From the IMG/VR virus record IMGVR_UViG_3300037488_000828, positions 1-37,334 of that record: DNA of 37,334 bases. One strand, 5' to 3'. This document shows positions 6,453-13,123 of the stretch, piece by piece; position 1 is the first letter of the stretch; each line of letters starts with the position of its first letter. Both the position numbers and the translations under genes were made by a program. The DNA is from a virus. The notes beneath the pieces were generated by a model that made no database searches, had not been told where the DNA came from, and was given only the letters and a program-made list of their open reading frames with translations.

Positions 6453-7430
6453 TCATTCGTCCGAAGTGGACGAAAGGTTGGGGACGGTAATGGGGTTGAG
6501 GCCCGCCCGCTGATCGTGGCGGGTTGCAAGTTCGCGGAGCGTGTTCATCGCCCGCCGTGTGGTGTAACGGTCATGGTCGATCTTGCCAAACTTGCGACCG
6601 CCATGTGCTTGCCGCCACAGGTAGAAGATGAGGTAGTTCACCGCAGATTGTCCGCGTGTTTCGGGCTGACCTCCTTCGGGGACATGGAGGAGGGTGCGCT
6701 CCGAAACTTCCCAAGCGGGATTGATGCCGTTCAAGGCCATTTCGACGAGGCTGACGCAGATCCGGACCCACGCGTTGATCTTGTCCGCGTTCAAAGTTCC
6801 GGAGAAAGCGCGGAACTCGACGGTCGGTTGACGACCCTGAAGGTAGTTCGTGACATTGAGCAGGTGGTAACGGTTGGAGAAGAGATCGGTCTGATTGTCA
6901 AACATCAGGTTGCGCTTTTCAGTCGAGTTGGCGACTGACAGGCCGTTCCACCGGATGCCTTTCGCCTTCTTGATCGACCTGCACCATCCGCCGTTTGCGC
7001 GGGACGGAGTTCCGGTCGAGCAGTAGATGCCTTCCTCTACGCGGCTGACGAGCCGATACAGACGGCGCAAGGCTTCGATGCTGTCCGTGGGGAAGTGGAC
7101 ATGGACATGGAGGCCGCAGGACTGATTGACGCGACCTCCCCAAGCCTTGATCTGATCGACCGTAGCCTTGATGTTGTCGAATCCCTCGCCGCCTTTGAGG
7201 ACCGGGGAGACAAACTCGACCGCGGTGCGATTCTCGAAATGGACCGATCCGTCATGGTCCGCCCGCCAGTTGCGTCCGCCGGGAGCCGGAAGTTCCGCGA
7301 CCGGGAAGCCGCACCCGTGACCGCCGATGCGGAGGTTCGGACAGAGGCGGTGGTCGATGCCGCATTCGATCTCGACACCGTAGGTGAGGTCGTTTGCGGA
7401 GTAGGTCGTGGTAGCGGTCGTCGCGGGCAT
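6453..7430 (-). CDS. COOH-NH2 ligase (amidoligase family)
   Basis: A 325-residue protein of the glutamine-synthetase-like amidoligase family (Amidoligase_2). Visible motifs are YGVEIEC at 17-23 (first metal-binding Glu pair), DG at 60-61, VEFVSP at 71-76, the signature CGLHVHV at 105-111, NRYHLLN at 186-192 and VEFRAF at 204-209. Family members use ATP to join a carboxylate to an amine. They occur beside class II amidotransferases in predicted peptide- or metabolite-modifying operons, as here. The ATG at 7430 lies behind promoter cassette D and it is the first of seven genes. The substrate is unknown: host protein, cell-wall peptide, or small molecule. Confidence 0.88.
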   Translation of the reverse strand: MPATTATTTYSANDLTYGVEIECGIDHRLCPNLRIGGHGCGFPVAELPAPGGRNWRADHDGSVHFENRTAVEFVSPVLKGGEGFDNIKATVDQIKAWGGRVNQSCGLHVHVHFPTDSIEALRRLYRLVSRVEEGIYCSTGTPSRANGGWCRSIKKAKGIRWNGLSVANSTEKRNLMFDNQTDLFSNRYHLLNVTNYLQGRQPTVEFRAFSGTLNADKINAWVRICVSLVEMALNGINPAWEVSERTLLHVPEGGQPETRGQSAVNYLIFYLWRQAHGGRKFGKIDHDRYTTRRAMNTLRELATRHDQRAGLNPITVPNLSSTSDE

Positions 7431-8542: not shown

Positions 8543-8571
8543 AAGATACCCTACTCCGCCGAAGGTGTCAA
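8543..8571 (-). promoter_or_regulatory. Sigma70-like promoter for the 8505-7539 unit
   Basis: On the minus strand TTGACA (8571-8566), a 17-bp spacer CCTTCGGCGGAGTAGGG and TATCTT (8548-8543). The -35 box overlaps the stop codon of the 136-aa gene. Confidence 0.87.
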
Positions 8572-8978
8572 GCGGGCGGAGTAGAATTGGACTTGTAAGA
8601 TTTGCTTACAGGTTCCTTGTAGCAGTCCCATCCGCAGATTTCTGCGATCTCCTCGGCGGTGCGACACTCGACATTCTCCCTGCCGACCCTCCGGTACACG
8701 CCGCCAACGGAAGCGCACATCTCGCAGAACTTCCGCCTGACGGCATCGCGCTCTTCGCGCATCTCCGTCAGATCTCGTTCCGCATTCCGGATCGACCACC
8801 GGATTCCTTCGATCAACTCCTGCAACGCGACCGCCTCGGCGCAGAACTGCGTGGTTCGTTGATCCCGCGCACATCCGCCTTGCCGGAGGCGTTCGATTTC
8901 GTCCGCAGCGGCATTCAGATCTTCGGAGGTAACGAATCCTCCCGCGTTGCGGAGTCGCCACGGCAAGTCGTGGATCAT
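8568..8978 (-). CDS. Hypothetical coiled-coil protein
   Basis: A 136-residue protein starting at the ATG at 8978, overlapping the small membrane-protein gene (ATGA). Residues 45-85 are a long charged helix (SIRNAERDLTEMREERDAVR) typical of a coiled coil. Several Cys follow (FCEMCASVGG, then CRTAEEIAEICGWDC), spaced so that a zinc site is possible. A longer in-frame start exists but would overlap the upstream gene fully and lacks a ribosome-binding site. Function unknown. Confidence 0.68.
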   Translation of the reverse strand: MIHDLPWRLRNAGGFVTSEDLNAAADEIERLRQGGCARDQRTTQFCAEAVALQELIEGIRWSIRNAERDLTEMREERDAVRRKFCEMCASVGGVYRRVGRENVECRTAEEIAEICGWDCYKEPVSKSYKSNSTPPA

Positions 8979-9079
8979 CGCCGCACCCCGCTGTTCTTCG
9001 CGATGGTGCGTAGGTCGATGGTGCAGGAAACGATGCAGAAGCCGACGACGATCTGCCAAACGATCTCAAGACATTCCAT
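8975..9079 (-). CDS. Small 34-aa membrane-anchored peptide, first leftward gene
   Basis: The ATG at 9079 has AAGGAG eight bases upstream. The 34-residue peptide has a hydrophobic stretch (IVWQIVVGFCIVSCTI, residues 6-21) followed by a basic tail, as in small single-pass membrane proteins. Its stop overlaps the next start (ATGA). It is the first gene leftward from the non-coding hub and the nearest to the promoter at 9100-9129. It could target the membrane or host channels, or be a leader peptide for the 136-aa gene. Confidence 0.6.
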   Translation of the reverse strand: MECLEIVWQIVVGFCIVSCTIDLRTIAKNSGVRR

Positions 9080-9099
9080 GATGTTCTCCTTGTGCCGCA

Positions 9100-9129
9100 A
9101 ACATACACCTACGCGGATGCAGGTGTCAA
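9100..9129 (-). promoter_or_regulatory. Leftward promoter of the divergent hub
   Basis: On the minus strand TTGACA (9129-9124), an 18-bp spacer CCTGCATCCGCGTAGGTG and TATGTT (9105-9100). ACACCT and AGGTGT form a 6-bp inverted repeat across the spacer. Unlike the other units, no hairpin follows. Confidence 0.8.
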
Positions 9130-9580
9130 TCGGGAAGGGTAGGAAATCAACGGAAACTTGGGCTTCGGACAAAGAACCGACCCCGGGGGCTTGACTGCCC
9201 TCTCAGGGTCGGTAAACTCTCTCTCGGTCGCCGCCTCGACAGGCTCAAAGTCCGGCGACGACCACATCGAAGCGTGAGCAGCATACCACGCACCCCGGGG
9301 AAGACCACGCCGTCAGTCGGCAACCGCTGCACCCTCGCCGGAGGGTCCGTATCCGGGCAAGAATGGGCGCGGCCACAGGCCGCTCAGACGCAGGGTTTGA
9401 CCCTACCCTGCGCACCGAAAGGTTGCTCTCGCATCGCAGAAGCAGGTGGCCCGCCGAAATGGTGAAAGCGATGCCTTGGTGATACCTCGTCCGGCTCCGG
9501 CGGGCTGATTTTCCCATGTCTCGCCCCGCGAAAGCGGGGTCATGGCGTGTCCTGTCGCCCTCCAACGGGCTGATGGGTGC
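9130..9580. promoter_or_regulatory. Non-coding hub rich in perfect inverted repeats
   Basis: No credible gene lies between 9080 and 9615. The stretch holds perfect inverted repeats at 9176-9183/9206-9213 (8 bp), 9227-9233/9253-9259 (7), 9272-9276/9287-9291 (5), 9309-9312/9318-9321 (4), 9331-9336/9341-9346 (6, tetraloop), 9369-9374/9378-9383 (6), 9389-9396/9405-9412 (8) and 9524-9529/9534-9539 (6, GAAA loop). Two more, 9431-9437/9468-9474 and 9449-9456/9498-9505, interlock like a pseudoknot. ACCCT/AGGGT half-sites recur. It may be a structured RNA, an operator array, or a replication origin. Confidence 0.6.
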
Positions 9581-9609
9581 TTGACCCGAACCCTATCTCA
9601 GGGTATCCT
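9581..9609 (+). promoter_or_regulatory. Rightward promoter with predicted leaderless start
   Basis: TTGACC (9581-9586), a 17-bp spacer and TATCCT (9604-9609). Six bases later comes the ATG at 9616, so the expected +1 is the A of the start codon. The spacer contains the palindrome ACCCT-ATCTC-AGGGT, an operator candidate. It shares the AGGGTAT junction with the leftward promoters. Confidence 0.8.
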
Positions 9610-9615
9610 AACGGC

Positions 9616-9873
9616 ATGAAACCCGTCAGAATCGAATGCCCGGGAGATTGGAAACGAGCAATGCACCGACACCTCGACTCCAACGGAGTCAGCCGTTACG
9701 CTTTCGTGCGCAAAGTCAGAGATAAGGACATCTGCACGACCCACACCGCGGAATGTCTCCTAGCCGACGATGGGACCGCGACCGGAAGCCGCGTACCGTC
9801 CTTCTCCACGGCAATCAACATGGCAAGACTCGCCGGATTCGACATGGTCATGATCCCGCGAAAGGCTCCATAA
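9616..9873 (+). CDS. Candidate phage regulator (repressor-like)
   Basis: An 85-residue basic protein and the first rightward gene. The start at 9616 follows TATCCT by six bases and has no Shine-Dalgarno site, so the mRNA is probably leaderless. The segments SRYAFVRKV (26-34) and AECLLADDG (46-54), then RVPSFSTAINMARLAGFDMVM (60-80), read like the helices of a lambda-repressor-like HTH with its turn. I recall similar small proteins in other phages. Its own promoter carries a palindromic operator candidate, which fits autoregulation. Without a database match the regulator call is an inference. Confidence 0.6.
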   Translation: MKPVRIECPGDWKRAMHRHLDSNGVSRYAFVRKVRDKDICTTHTAECLLADDGTATGSRVPSFSTAINMARLAGFDMVMIPRKAP

Positions 9874-9897
9874 CTCGCCACCCCGAAAGGTCTTCCC

Positions 9898-10713
9898 GTG
9901 GAAAACGGCACGACTCAACATCTTCAAAGGTGGCTTCTGTGTGCGACCGTACAGGACCGCATCTCAAGCATGATGACCTGTGCAGCGACGATCCGTGAGC
10001 ATCTGCCGTCTTGGAATGTCGTCGTTGCGACTCAGGAATACACCTCGGTCGAGGATCAGCGGCTCCGCAAAGCCCTTCCCGATGCCATGATCGTCAGCAT
10101 GACCCGCCGGGTGGGGATGCACAGCGCGAAGATGGCCGCACTCCGTCATGTCCGCAGGGTGTGTGGCTCCGACCCGTATGTCGTCTGCTCCATCGACGAC
10201 GACATGGAGTTCCTGCCGCAGACCAACCTTGAGCCGTGCGTTGCCAAGTCGCTTGACCCAATGACCGGATTCGTGACGGCGAACTGGGTGGCGCACCCCA
10301 ACCATCTCGCCAAGAGGAAGATCCGCCATGCGTTCGTGAAACAGCCGATTGTCTACACCGCCGGAGGCATGGTGTTCGACCGCAAGGTGGCGGACATCAT
10401 CTCCGCATTGCCCGATGCAAGGTACTACTCGGACAACAGCAAGTGGTCGATTGCCGCGTACACCGCGGGACTCAGCAACTACCGCTACCTCGGGAGCCTC
10501 GCCATTCACCGGATCTGTCAGAAGGGTGGGCGCAGGGCGTGGGTTATTGACAGCGATGTCGTCCCCCCCGACCCTGAGATGATCTCCGTGCGAGAAGGCC
10601 GACCCATCGCCGGGAAGACCGAATACCTGATCGGGCGTTCGGAGGATCTGACCGACCACGCCCACAACCTGCACAAGATGAACGCGGCCCTCCGCCGTCA
10701 AGGAACAGCATGA
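9898..10713 (+). CDS. Glycosyltransferase-like protein (GT-A fold)
   Basis: A 271-residue protein starting at GTG 9898 behind AAAGG. The N-terminal half alternates beta strands and helices. At 98-104 it has SIDDDME, a DxD metal- and sugar-nucleotide-binding motif of GT-A glycosyltransferases, preceded by a Rossmann-like stretch (WNVVVATQEY). The middle TAGGMVFDRKV and a late His/Arg-rich part fit the acceptor half. Its partners in the operon are ParB-like, methyltransferase-like and PAPS-reductase-like genes, suggesting glycosylation of DNA or of a modified nucleotide. Glycosylation of a virion protein is the alternative. The stop overlaps the next start (ATGA). Confidence 0.68.
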   Translation: MENGTTQHLQRWLLCATVQDRISSMMTCAATIREHLPSWNVVVATQEYTSVEDQRLRKALPDAMIVSMTRRVGMHSAKMAALRHVRRVCGSDPYVVCSIDDDMEFLPQTNLEPCVAKSLDPMTGFVTANWVAHPNHLAKRKIRHAFVKQPIVYTAGGMVFDRKVADIISALPDARYYSDNSKWSIAAYTAGLSNYRYLGSLAIHRICQKGGRRAWVIDSDVVPPDPEMISVREGRPIAGKTEYLIGRSEDLTDHAHNLHKMNAALRRQGTA

Positions 10714-11270
10714 ACATCGAAACCGTTGCCACTTCCGCCCTGATCCCCGACCCGAACAACGCCCGCGTCCATGACGAAGCGAACATCGAAGCCCTCAAGA
10801 ACTCCCTGACGACCTTCGGGCAGCAGAAGCCCATCGTCATCGACCGTGACAACATGGTCGTGGCGGGGAACGGGTTCCTGACCGCCGCGAAGCAACTCGG
10901 GTGGGAGAAGATCGCCGTTGTCCGCACCAACCTGACGGGTGACAAGGCCCGCGCATTCGCCATCGCGGACAACCGCACCGCCGAACTGTCCGATTGGGAT
11001 ACCGCCGCCCTCGCCACGATCCTCAACAGCCTCCCGGACGGCTACCTCGTTTCGACGGGTTGGGATCAGGCCGACCTCGACGCGATGCTCGGGGAAGCCT
11101 TGGAGTCCTACTCCCCGGTCCTGAACCCGGAGTTCGGGTCGAACCGCGTCGATGAGAGCCGTCTTGAGAAGGCCGAAAAGGTGTTCGATGTCGCGCAGAA
11201 GCCCGTCGAGGAAGTCGTCGTTGTTTGCCCGCATTGCGGGGAGGATTTCAAAGTTGACTCCATTTCTTGA
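10710..11270 (+). CDS. ParB/Spo0J-superfamily protein with C-terminal zinc knuckle
   Basis: A 186-residue protein. Residues 1-100 match the ParB N-terminal domain: IPDPNNARVHDEANIEALKNS, QQKPIVID at 38-45, then AGNGFLTAAKQLG at 52-64, where the usual GHGR reads GNGF, and AIADNRTAELSDWD at 84-97. The last residues include CPHCG, half of a zinc ribbon. This superfamily includes partition CTPases, nucleases and sulfiredoxin-like enzymes. Phage copies near terminases often sit in predicted DNA-modification clusters. The His-to-Asn change in the central motif may alter catalysis. The start overlaps the glycosyltransferase stop. Confidence 0.82.
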   Translation: MNIETVATSALIPDPNNARVHDEANIEALKNSLTTFGQQKPIVIDRDNMVVAGNGFLTAAKQLGWEKIAVVRTNLTGDKARAFAIADNRTAELSDWDTAALATILNSLPDGYLVSTGWDQADLDAMLGEALESYSPVLNPEFGSNRVDESRLEKAEKVFDVAQKPVEEVVVVCPHCGEDFKVDSIS

Positions 11271-12024
11271 TAGGCGCGTTTTCGATCACGCCGTCCGAGT
11301 CGCTGAGAAGATGCGGAACGCAGAGTATCGGTTCGCGTCCACGGCTCCCACGAACCCGCATTACTACACACTCCTCTCGACATGGGACAAGGAAGAGGAG
11401 TTTTGGGAATGCGATGATTTCATGCGGGACAACGGATATCCGACCCTTTGGCACGGCCACAAATACATCTACTTCGACATCGACGGGTGGCATTACTGGA
11501 ATCTTCCAAAGCCCGACCGTCAGAGAATCAAACTCATCAACAGGTGCAAGAAGCCGTACCCGAAGCGTGTGCCGTTCTCAGCCCCCAACCCGGAATTGCA
11601 GGAACGCATCGCCCAACGGCTTTGTGACATGAAGTTGGGACGGGTTCTTGAGATCGGGTTCCCCGAATCGGGAACAGTCCTGACTGCCGTGGACATCCAC
11701 CCCGACGATTACATTGGGATTGACACCGATTCCATCGCCGTGTCCCAAGCCGAATACGATCATCCGCAGCATCTTTTTGTCCGGACCTGCCTGTCGGATC
11801 ATTACCGCCGCTACGACACAATCCTCGCCCTTTGGGGTTCCGCATCGCGCATCCCCGGCCACGCGCTCGACCGCATCCCTTTGATGCTGAATCCGGGCGG
11901 TCAAGCGATCCTCATGTTCGATGAAGACCCGGGACTTCAGTTTGGGGAGAAAGACACGCCGTTCCACGGGTTCGTCGTGAGAAAAATCATCAATGCAGAT
12001 CTACACCAAGAAGACCGTCCTTGA
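11254..12024 (+). CDS. SAM-dependent methyltransferase-like protein
   Basis: A 256-residue protein if translation starts at TTG 11254, which has GGGGAGGA nine bases upstream and overlaps the ParB gene by 17 bases. An ATG further upstream would overlap more deeply. The N-terminal part is Trp/Tyr-rich (TLWHGHKYIYFDIDGWHYW). The C-terminal part, from about residue 125, has the class I Rossmann order: GRVLEIGFP (motif I), VDIHPDDYIGIDTD (motif II), ILALWGS (motif IV) and LNPGGQAILMF. A DNA or nucleotide target is suggested by its neighbours. The catalytic motif is not of the classic DPPY type, so the target base is open. Confidence 0.68.
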   Translation: MTPFLDRRVFDHAVRVAEKMRNAEYRFASTAPTNPHYYTLLSTWDKEEEFWECDDFMRDNGYPTLWHGHKYIYFDIDGWHYWNLPKPDRQRIKLINRCKKPYPKRVPFSAPNPELQERIAQRLCDMKLGRVLEIGFPESGTVLTAVDIHPDDYIGIDTDSIAVSQAEYDHPQHLFVRTCLSDHYRRYDTILALWGSASRIPGHALDRIPLMLNPGGQAILMFDEDPGLQFGEKDTPFHGFVVRKIINADLHQEDRP

Positions 12025-13123
12025 AGCCGCGCTCGACCGCGTTCGATACCTCTTCGATGAGTTTCCGAATGTCGTCGTGCAGTTTTCGGGAGGCAAAGAT
12101 TCCACCGCCATCCTCAACATCGCGCTGAAGGTTGCCGAAGAGAAAAACCGCCTTCCGCTCCGGGTGATGTTTATAGATCAGGAGTTGGAGTGGCAAACGG
12201 TCGTGGATCACATCAGGGAAGTGATGTCGGACCCTCGGATCGACCCGTGGTGGCTTCAAATCCCCTTCCTTATCGAAAACGCGACTTCGACCCGGGAGAA
12301 CTTCCTTCTAACTTGGGACCCTGACCGTAAGAATGTTTGGGTGCGTCCCCAAGAACCCAACTCCGTCAAGGTCAACAAGTTCGGAGCAAAGTACTGGAAC
12401 GACCTGTTCCCGAAAATCCCGGCTGTCGAATACCCGGGGCAGAAGATGTGTTTCCTCGGGGGAGTTCGATGCGAGGAATCCCCGACCCGTCGAGTCTGCT
12501 TGACCCACGCGGCCACCTACAAGCACATCACTTTCGGCCGGAAACTCGACTCAGCCGGACTGCATTTCACCTTCTACCCGCTTTACGATTGGTCGCTCAC
12601 GGATGTGTGGAAGTTCATTCACGACAACAAGATACCGTACTGCGGGCTGTACGACGAGATGTTCAAGCAAGGTGTTGCGCTGAACAAAATGCGCGTCAGC
12701 AACTTGAATCACGAAACCGCCGTCCACGCGTTGTTTTTCCTGCAGGAAGTCGAGCCGACAACTTGGAACCTGATCACCCGACGACTCAACGGCATTGCAA
12801 TGGCGGGGCAAATGAAGAAGGAAGCCTTCAACGCCCCGAAAGAACTGCCGTGGATGTTCTCTTCGTGGAGGGAATACCGCGATTACCTACTCGACAAGTT
12901 GATTGACAAATCCGATGCGGAACGGGTCGAGAAGTTCCGCCAAAAGTTCGCTCGGATGGACCGGATGTACGCGAAATACCCAAACCAAGATCAGATGGTG
13001 AAAGTGCATATTGCAGCCATTCTTTGCAACGATTGGCTGATGAACAAGATCACCGCTTGGGAGAACAAAAAAGAACGCTGCCTGTTCCGCAAGTCCCAAA
13101 GGTTGGAGAACCAAGACAAATGA
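11993..13123 (+). CDS. PAPS-reductase/adenylyl-PP-loop enzyme (IbrA-like)
   Basis: A 376-residue protein of the PAPS reductase superfamily with the PP-loop SGGKDST at 32-38, the following FIDQELEW, and a later MCFLGGVRCEES segment with a Cys pair. The C-terminal region (about 240-376) is helical and characteristic of the larger IbrA-type proteins. Such enzymes adenylate or reduce sulfur or other acceptors; DndC of DNA phosphorothioation is a relative. The start overlaps the methyltransferase-like gene by 32 bases. It is followed with a 4-base overlap by a ParB-like IbrB-type gene, the same pairing as IbrA/IbrB known from Escherichia coli prophages. Substrate unknown. Confidence 0.85.
   Translation: MQIYTKKTVLEAALDRVRYLFDEFPNVVVQFSGGKDSTAILNIALKVAEEKNRLPLRVMFIDQELEWQTVVDHIREVMSDPRIDPWWLQIPFLIENATSTRENFLLTWDPDRKNVWVRPQEPNSVKVNKFGAKYWNDLFPKIPAVEYPGQKMCFLGGVRCEESPTRRVCLTHAATYKHITFGRKLDSAGLHFTFYPLYDWSLTDVWKFIHDNKIPYCGLYDEMFKQGVALNKMRVSNLNHETAVHALFFLQEVEPTTWNLITRRLNGIAMAGQMKKEAFNAPKELPWMFSSWREYRDYLLDKLIDKSDAERVEKFRQKFARMDRMYAKYPNQDQMVKVHIAAILCNDWLMNKITAWENKKERCLFRKSQRLENQDK

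Follow-up and report, generated by a model that had tools for sequence, protein, structure and literature searches.

A structured noncoding RNA of about 350 nt shared by uncultured phages

The viral record IMGVR_UViG_3300037488_000828 (IMG/VR; 37,334 nt, positions 1-37,334, the whole of which was analysed and is referred to here as the window) almost certainly encodes a structured plus-strand RNA at about 9225-9573, as judged from homology and covariation among its relatives. The locus occupies the gap between two oppositely directed gene blocks, the minus-strand genes starting at ~9080 and the plus-strand genes from 9616, and the RNA is found in dozens of viruses that have never been cultured (94 viral contigs in total, including the window). 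Our overall reading, to which we assign a probability of roughly 0.6, is that this ~350-nt phage RNA would be transcribed from a sigma-70 promoter under the control of a Cro/HipB-type repressor and would act in trans through exposed motifs. Phages have few large structured RNAs, and these lack an explanation; for this family there are now 42 non-redundant copies, a calibrated model and pairs fixed by covariation, which opens concrete tests.

Covariation and fold of the RNA

The initial annotation described a divergent non-coding region packed with hairpins and offered a structured RNA, a replication origin or a dense operator field as candidates. The gene starts given above agree with the divergent setting, and the two hairpins spelled out, ACCCTC-GCCG-GAGGGT (9331-9346) and CCCCGC-GAAA-GCGGGG (9524-9539), were found exactly. 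However, "packed" overstated the case. When perfect non-overlapping stems with loops of 3-10 nt were counted in 9130-9580 and in 200 shuffles, stems of at least 4 bp (10 observed vs. 9.4 shuffled; 92/200 shuffles as high) and at least 5 bp (5 vs. 3.5; 53/200) were near the shuffled numbers, and only those of at least 6 bp exceeded them (4 vs. 0.96; 4/200). Hairpin density was therefore rejected as proof of a structured RNA. All five hairpins of at least 5 bp map onto helices of the conserved RNA (helix and cluster names were coined in this analysis). The single-sequence fold of the plus strand was weak (z -1.5, with 10/100 shuffles equally good) and that of the minus strand was better (z -3.7), which taken alone would point to the opposite strand. 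We favor the plus strand because the G-U pairs, which are frequent in P8 and P6, would be A-C mismatches on the other strand.

The evidence for structure comes from relatives. Alignments A1, A3 and A4 come straight from MAFFT; the structures tested in them had been worked out by eye, with the sequences and preceding alignments as the basis. In A1 (25 sequences; helices P3, P4, P5, P6, P8 and the possible PK3), 94.6% of cells were paired vs. 82.5 in shuffles, the number of doubly changed cells was 105, against 31.3 in shuffles (0/500) and no more than 17 in the slid-strand control, and 19 pairs had compensatory change. In A5, which holds the 42 non-redundant sequences and, being fitted to our covariance model R1, leans toward the R1 structure, 96.1% of helix cells were paired, 252 cells were doubly changed vs. 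60.4 shuffled, and compensatory change occurred in 25 of the 30 base pairs. Compensatory change thus exceeded both the shuffled and the slid controls, as expected of a structured RNA. The initial annotation had itself named a lack of covariation or conservation in relatives among what could refute its candidate; both were looked for and found, so its guess of a structured RNA holds, because of the comparison with relatives and not because of hairpin density. The folded RNA is probably a working RNA and not a chance scatter of hairpins: that GC-rich intergenic DNA merely formed hairpins at random, as the near-shuffled counts of stems of at least 4 and 5 bp would allow, is refuted by the covariation and all of the comparative evidence, and we give it a negligible probability.

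The features of the RNA are as follows.

9225..9573, plus strand: structured noncoding RNA, from homology and covariation; 5' end placed from the promoter and 3' end from the limit of conservation
9272..9330, plus strand: pseudoknot PK1, with stem A 9272-9276/9287-9291, stem B 9278-9282/9326-9330 and an inner hairpin 9309-9321
9331..9356, plus strand: pseudoknot PK2, with stem 9331-9335/9342-9346 (the ACCCTC hairpin) and loop helix 9338-9341/9353-9356
9369..9383, plus strand: P2b hairpin GCGGCC-ACA-GGCCGC; counterparts noted by eye in the aligned sequences, uncounted
9389..9412, plus strand: P3 helix with conserved loop UUUGACCCUA; 7/7 pairs compensatory in A5
9414..9423, plus strand: P4 hairpin ACC-GAAA-GGU; 4/4 pairs with compensatory change
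9431..9474, plus strand: P5 helix (9431-9437/9468-9474); within it lie P6 (9445-9448/9452-9455) and, at 9457-9464, the conserved AAAUGGUG
9492..9499, plus strand: conserved CGGCUCCG segment, kept in most alignment rows; pairing uncertain
9524..9545, plus strand: P8 hairpin (CCCCGC-GAAA-GCGGGG here), then UCAUGG; from the alignments and RNAalifold
9560..9573, plus strand: 3' segment, proposed to form PK3 with UGGUG 9460-9464; one of five pairs is broken in the window

Two subclasses can be told apart by their 5' halves, and the H-type pseudoknot PK1 is kept in both. Covariation was found for stem B of PK1 in A3 and for stems A and B in A4, stem A being countable only in the subclass that is not window-like, as the loop length of the window-like sequences shifts the columns. 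The PK2 loop helix, in the window-like subclass, is paired in 11/11 sequences, and all four of its pairs have compensatory change. P5 is 98.0% paired with compensatory change in 7/7 pairs, and in P6 the figure is 5/5. P8 has compensatory change in 2/7 pairs, its variation lying almost only on the 5' strand while GGGUC on the 3' side is constant. This GGGUC is complementary to GACCC of the nearly invariant P3 loop (GACCCUA), and RNAalifold prefers the pairing with the loop, suggesting a possible switch or tertiary contact. PK3 (UGGUG with CACCA) remains a proposal because, although 96.8% of its cells are paired, there are no compensatory double changes.

The initial annotation saw no plausible gene here, and we agree: the distance separating two conserved motifs takes all three phases among homologs (21/11/9), and changes track base pairing, not codons. 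Short frames do start at the AUG of GAAAUGGUGAAA, some of them ending near AACUGA (by eye), but they are not the same in all copies, and a coding reading was rejected. Extra hairpin-like insertions occur between CGGCUCCG and P8 in loci L004 and L031, and after AAAUGG in L006, with the common fold intact. In part of the window-like subclass only (L009, L010, L015, L031, L041, L053, and L062), a conserved stretch around GCGAGTGCGC and GCAACTG lies 3' of the RNA; it is absent from the window.

Distribution among viruses and comparison with catalogued families

Relatives were collected with the large terminase (TerL) gene of the window as query, which gave 12 viral loci. When 8900-9900 was compared with these by blastn, the noncoding stretch itself proved to be conserved (75% over 304 nt in L010); in L010 and L009 the RNA lies ~7 kb away from the relative of the ORF that adjoins it in the window. 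A gapped two-motif pattern matched 49 stretches in viral_contigs, and two further patterns matched 55 and 94, the sets partly overlapping. Fifty-seven early occurrences were reduced to 25 at 97% identity, and 68 occurrences to 42 at 95%; the 68 include representatives of the 57 and not all of them, and L083 (repeats L006), L116 (repeats L011), and L078 (cut by a contig end) were left out.

The calibrated model R1 (190 positions, 30 pairs) matches the window at 9384-9573 with 124.8 bits. On 60 newly fetched loci it gave 44 matches at E<1e-10, the rest having no match below E 0.05. In a search of whole records with R1, 30 of 33 had one copy each and no more; the other three are 4- to 11-kb fragments. 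Among the 30 are the records of L006 and L011, which lie outside the training set of the model and were recovered at E 9e-21 and 4e-40.

Searches beyond these viruses yielded no genuine copy. The first of two exact patterns had no match in ~85,000 bacterial and archaeal species genomes, and the four matches of the second (L127-L130) were judged false: L127 and L128 had no R1 match, and the R1 matches in L129 and L130 spanned only 52-54 bases where the contig ends (E 0.05 and 0.13), within a stretch that both contigs contain as a repeat. The end of L129 and the start of L130, two contigs of one Rhodobacterales MAG, carry the same end sequence, probably that of an insertion sequence; compared with the phage loci, these two gave nothing by blastn and only low-identity matches by tblastx, mostly to L038, neither of which was used. 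In seven isolate phages related through virion proteins, R1 had no match at E<0.02 (0/7; the best score, E 0.024 over 31 model positions, is chance-like), implying that the RNA is dispensable for some phages of that build. The P3 hairpin, searched as an exact 22-base pattern, had no match in viral_contigs, no relatives were reached through a glycosyltransferase-like gene, and DNA similarity to phage and plasmid records was not found. The searched portion of the open-licence literature held no description of this RNA.

None of the 4227 Rfam 15 models matched the copies from the window, L010 or L035 at the gathering score, the best weak match (E 0.087) being to an unrelated family. The RNA thus matches no family catalogued in Rfam 15, and from these comparisons we regard it as a new RNA class.

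Promoters, flanking genes and terminases

Four features of the window surround the RNA.

9176..9213, no strand assigned: dyad ACCGACCC / GGGTCGGT around the -35 box, a possible operator; 8-bp perfect arms, 1/100 shuffles
9191..9218, plus strand: sigma-70-like promoter of the RNA, TTGACT (9191-9196), 16 nt, TAAACT (9213-9218)
9581..9609, plus strand: second promoter TTGACC-17-TATCCT, with dyad ACCCT-ATCTC-AGGGT, just upstream of the gene at 9616
9616..9873, plus strand: k0, an 85-aa Cro/HipB-like helix-turn-helix protein, the first gene downstream of the RNA

An equivalent promoter (TT[GC][AC]NN-N15-18-TANNNT) is present upstream in 30/42 copies vs. 2.0 in shuffles, mostly at one of two distances. 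At ten window-like loci the promoter lies within a perfect dyad of 8-12 bp whose sequence differs from phage to phage (at most 1/100 shuffles each). The dyad test was restricted to the 30 loci at which a promoter had been called and gave p<=0.05 in 11 of them, the L014-like loci mostly not being among these. The promoter dyads might be repressor operators. The annotated recurrence of ACCCT/AGGGT half-sites is confirmed in one form: CCCT-N{0,4}-CTCAGGG occurs only in the two plus-strand promoters of the window (9198-9208 and 9591-9603; 0.10 expected), while the looser CCCTN{3,6}AGGG, with 3 occurrences vs. 1.75 expected, is not above chance. What survives of the dense operator field is thus at most two promoters whose spacers share one common dyad; most of the hairpins are helices of the RNA.

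These dyads at both promoters, together with the divergent position, are also what might suggest that the locus acts as DNA, as an operator array or a replication origin. We consider this very improbable since compensatory changes, many G-U pairs and pseudoknots are signatures of RNA; in addition, a repeat search showed no iteron array, and the composition change at ~9 kb coincides with the change of coding strand. The origin candidate found no support.

Genes were called with our own codon-score scripts, and two of the 42 copies had no callable downstream gene and three no callable upstream gene. The upstream gene is divergent in 33/39 loci, and the downstream gene is co-directional in 36/40 and convergent in the remaining four (L076, L094, L097, and L124). 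The convergent gene of L094 and L097, of ~2550 codons, faces the RNA and is unlike those at other loci; that of L076 resembles by eye the k3 protein, which is encoded co-directionally elsewhere. First downstream genes differ between loci. A separate gene-neighborhood comparison of 31 loci covered 30 of them, missing L006, which the pattern did not fit. Intrinsic terminators 3' of the RNA are near chance (2/42 copies vs. 1.0 shuffled), as are terminator-like sites on the plus strand upstream (6/42 vs. 3.8).

This arrangement bears on whether the RNA could instead be a 5' leader acting in cis on the rightward operon, e.g., a processive-antitermination RNA that modifies RNA polymerase, or a long attenuator. 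Its place directly downstream of a promoter, the usual co-directional gene and the lack of a terminator before that gene are all consistent with a leader. However, the next gene is not always co-directional, the convergent gene of L076 looks related to one that is co-directional elsewhere, the first downstream genes vary, and in the window the first of them has its own promoter; we consider a leader unlikely. We prefer action in trans, which we regard as fairly probable from these comparisons, because two terminase families accompany the RNA, an intrinsic terminator is lacking and the next gene is convergent in four loci. The convergent loci and the variety of neighbors favor it and the usual co-directional neighbor speaks against it, as does the missing terminator, which was thus weighed on both sides.

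Among 40 long RNA-bearing records, 20 have the terminase type of the window, 15 another type, none both and five neither. The k0 profile is present in 36 of these 40 and in none of the seven isolate phages that lack the RNA (0/7), a weak control as the isolates are only distant relatives; k0 often adjoins the terminase rather than the RNA. The predicted model of k0 has a pLDDT of 93.4, and its nearest solved folds by Foldseek are HipB antitoxins and similar helix-turn-helix proteins (E 0.04 and above). PHROGs gave "transcriptional repressor" for 3/17 members of the k0 family (best E 0.0037), and a Pfam search of k0 found no match.

Proposed role and other observations

We propose that host sigma-70 polymerase would start the RNA at ~9225 from TTGACT-16-TAAACT, and that a Cro/HipB-type phage repressor, possibly k0, would control this promoter via the surrounding dyads. 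Covariation shows that the RNA folds as a series of helices: two H-type pseudoknots occupy the 5' half, and the 3' half contains P3-P6 and, with weaker evidence, P8. This fold leaves conserved unpaired motifs exposed (the GACCCUA loop, GCUC, AAAUGGUG, CGGCUCCG, and the 3' CACC). Acting in trans, the RNA may use these motifs as a surface with which to grip a macromolecule of the cell or the phage in the course of infection. We consider a role in regulation or host takeover the most likely, more so than service as a structural component of the particle.

Several known RNAs resemble it in part. The tmRNA is of similar length and has several pseudoknots; however, ARAGORN found no tRNA or tmRNA gene in the whole window, there was no Rfam tmRNA match, and the tRNA-like domain and tag frame of a tmRNA were not found. 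The phi29-type packaging RNA is a small structured phage RNA about half as long as that of the window. Unlike it, the window RNA has no Rfam match and no partnership with a single packaging-ATPase lineage, the two TerL families being found without overlap in 20 and 15 of the 40 records (neither in 5); a packaging role is disfavored because these two families never occur in one record. HK022 put and EAR are antitermination RNAs that modify RNA polymerase, structured and encoded just downstream of a promoter where a gene block starts, and are much smaller than the window RNA, which differs from them also in its four convergent loci of 40 and in having no Rfam match.

Another likeness is to ROOL and GOLLD as described in PMC12286853: phage-borne noncoding RNAs with elaborate, covarying, pseudoknotted structure and no known function. 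Their profiles were taken from Rfam and their stated lengths are 659 and over 800 nt (PMC12286853), vs. ~350 nt for the window RNA, which has no match among the 4227 Rfam models, GOLLD and ROOL presumably being among them, and which is accompanied by no tRNA gene in the window. Based on this likeness in size, pseudoknots and phage origin to the RNAs of PMC12286853, and on the chance that the P3 loop of one molecule pairs with the GGGUC strand of another's P8, the RNA could be structural, as an RNA-only oligomer like GOLLD/ROOL or as a particle component. We doubt this, and more so than we doubt a leader: its length is about half or less of that stated for GOLLD/ROOL in PMC12286853, the window has no tRNA, and the presence of two terminase families speaks against a motor RNA for packaging.

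Beyond the regulatory role preferred above, we tentatively suggest, as a possibility short of even odds, that the RNA represents an undescribed class of pseudoknotted trans-acting phage RNA, which would be passed between lineages with different packaging modules, inherited with a Cro/HipB-like regulator, and serve as an infection machine with a built-in switch. Within this suggestion, the RNA might grip the host transcription or translation machinery or assemble into a particle, and GACCC of the nearly invariant P3 loop might compete with the 5' strand of P8 for the one GGGUC.

Other features of the records were noted in passing. Two leftward near-consensus promoters are present on the minus strand of the window, TTGACA-18-TATGTT at 9100-9129, in an ACACCT/AGGTGT dyad, and TTGACA-17-TATCTT at 8543-8571, ahead of leftward genes. 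The head-tail connector of Limnohabitans phage DC33 (PQ492659.1, our L131), a tailed-phage protein, is 74% identical to that of L029, and the filing of DC33 under Inoviridae looks wrong. PHROGs identified amidoligase-like (6453-7430), ParB-like (10710-11270), and phosphoadenosine phosphosulfate (PAPS) reductase-like (11993-13123) genes in the window, and at other loci a gene cluster judged by eye to be PAPS-reductase-like (k15) is repeatedly found close to the RNA.
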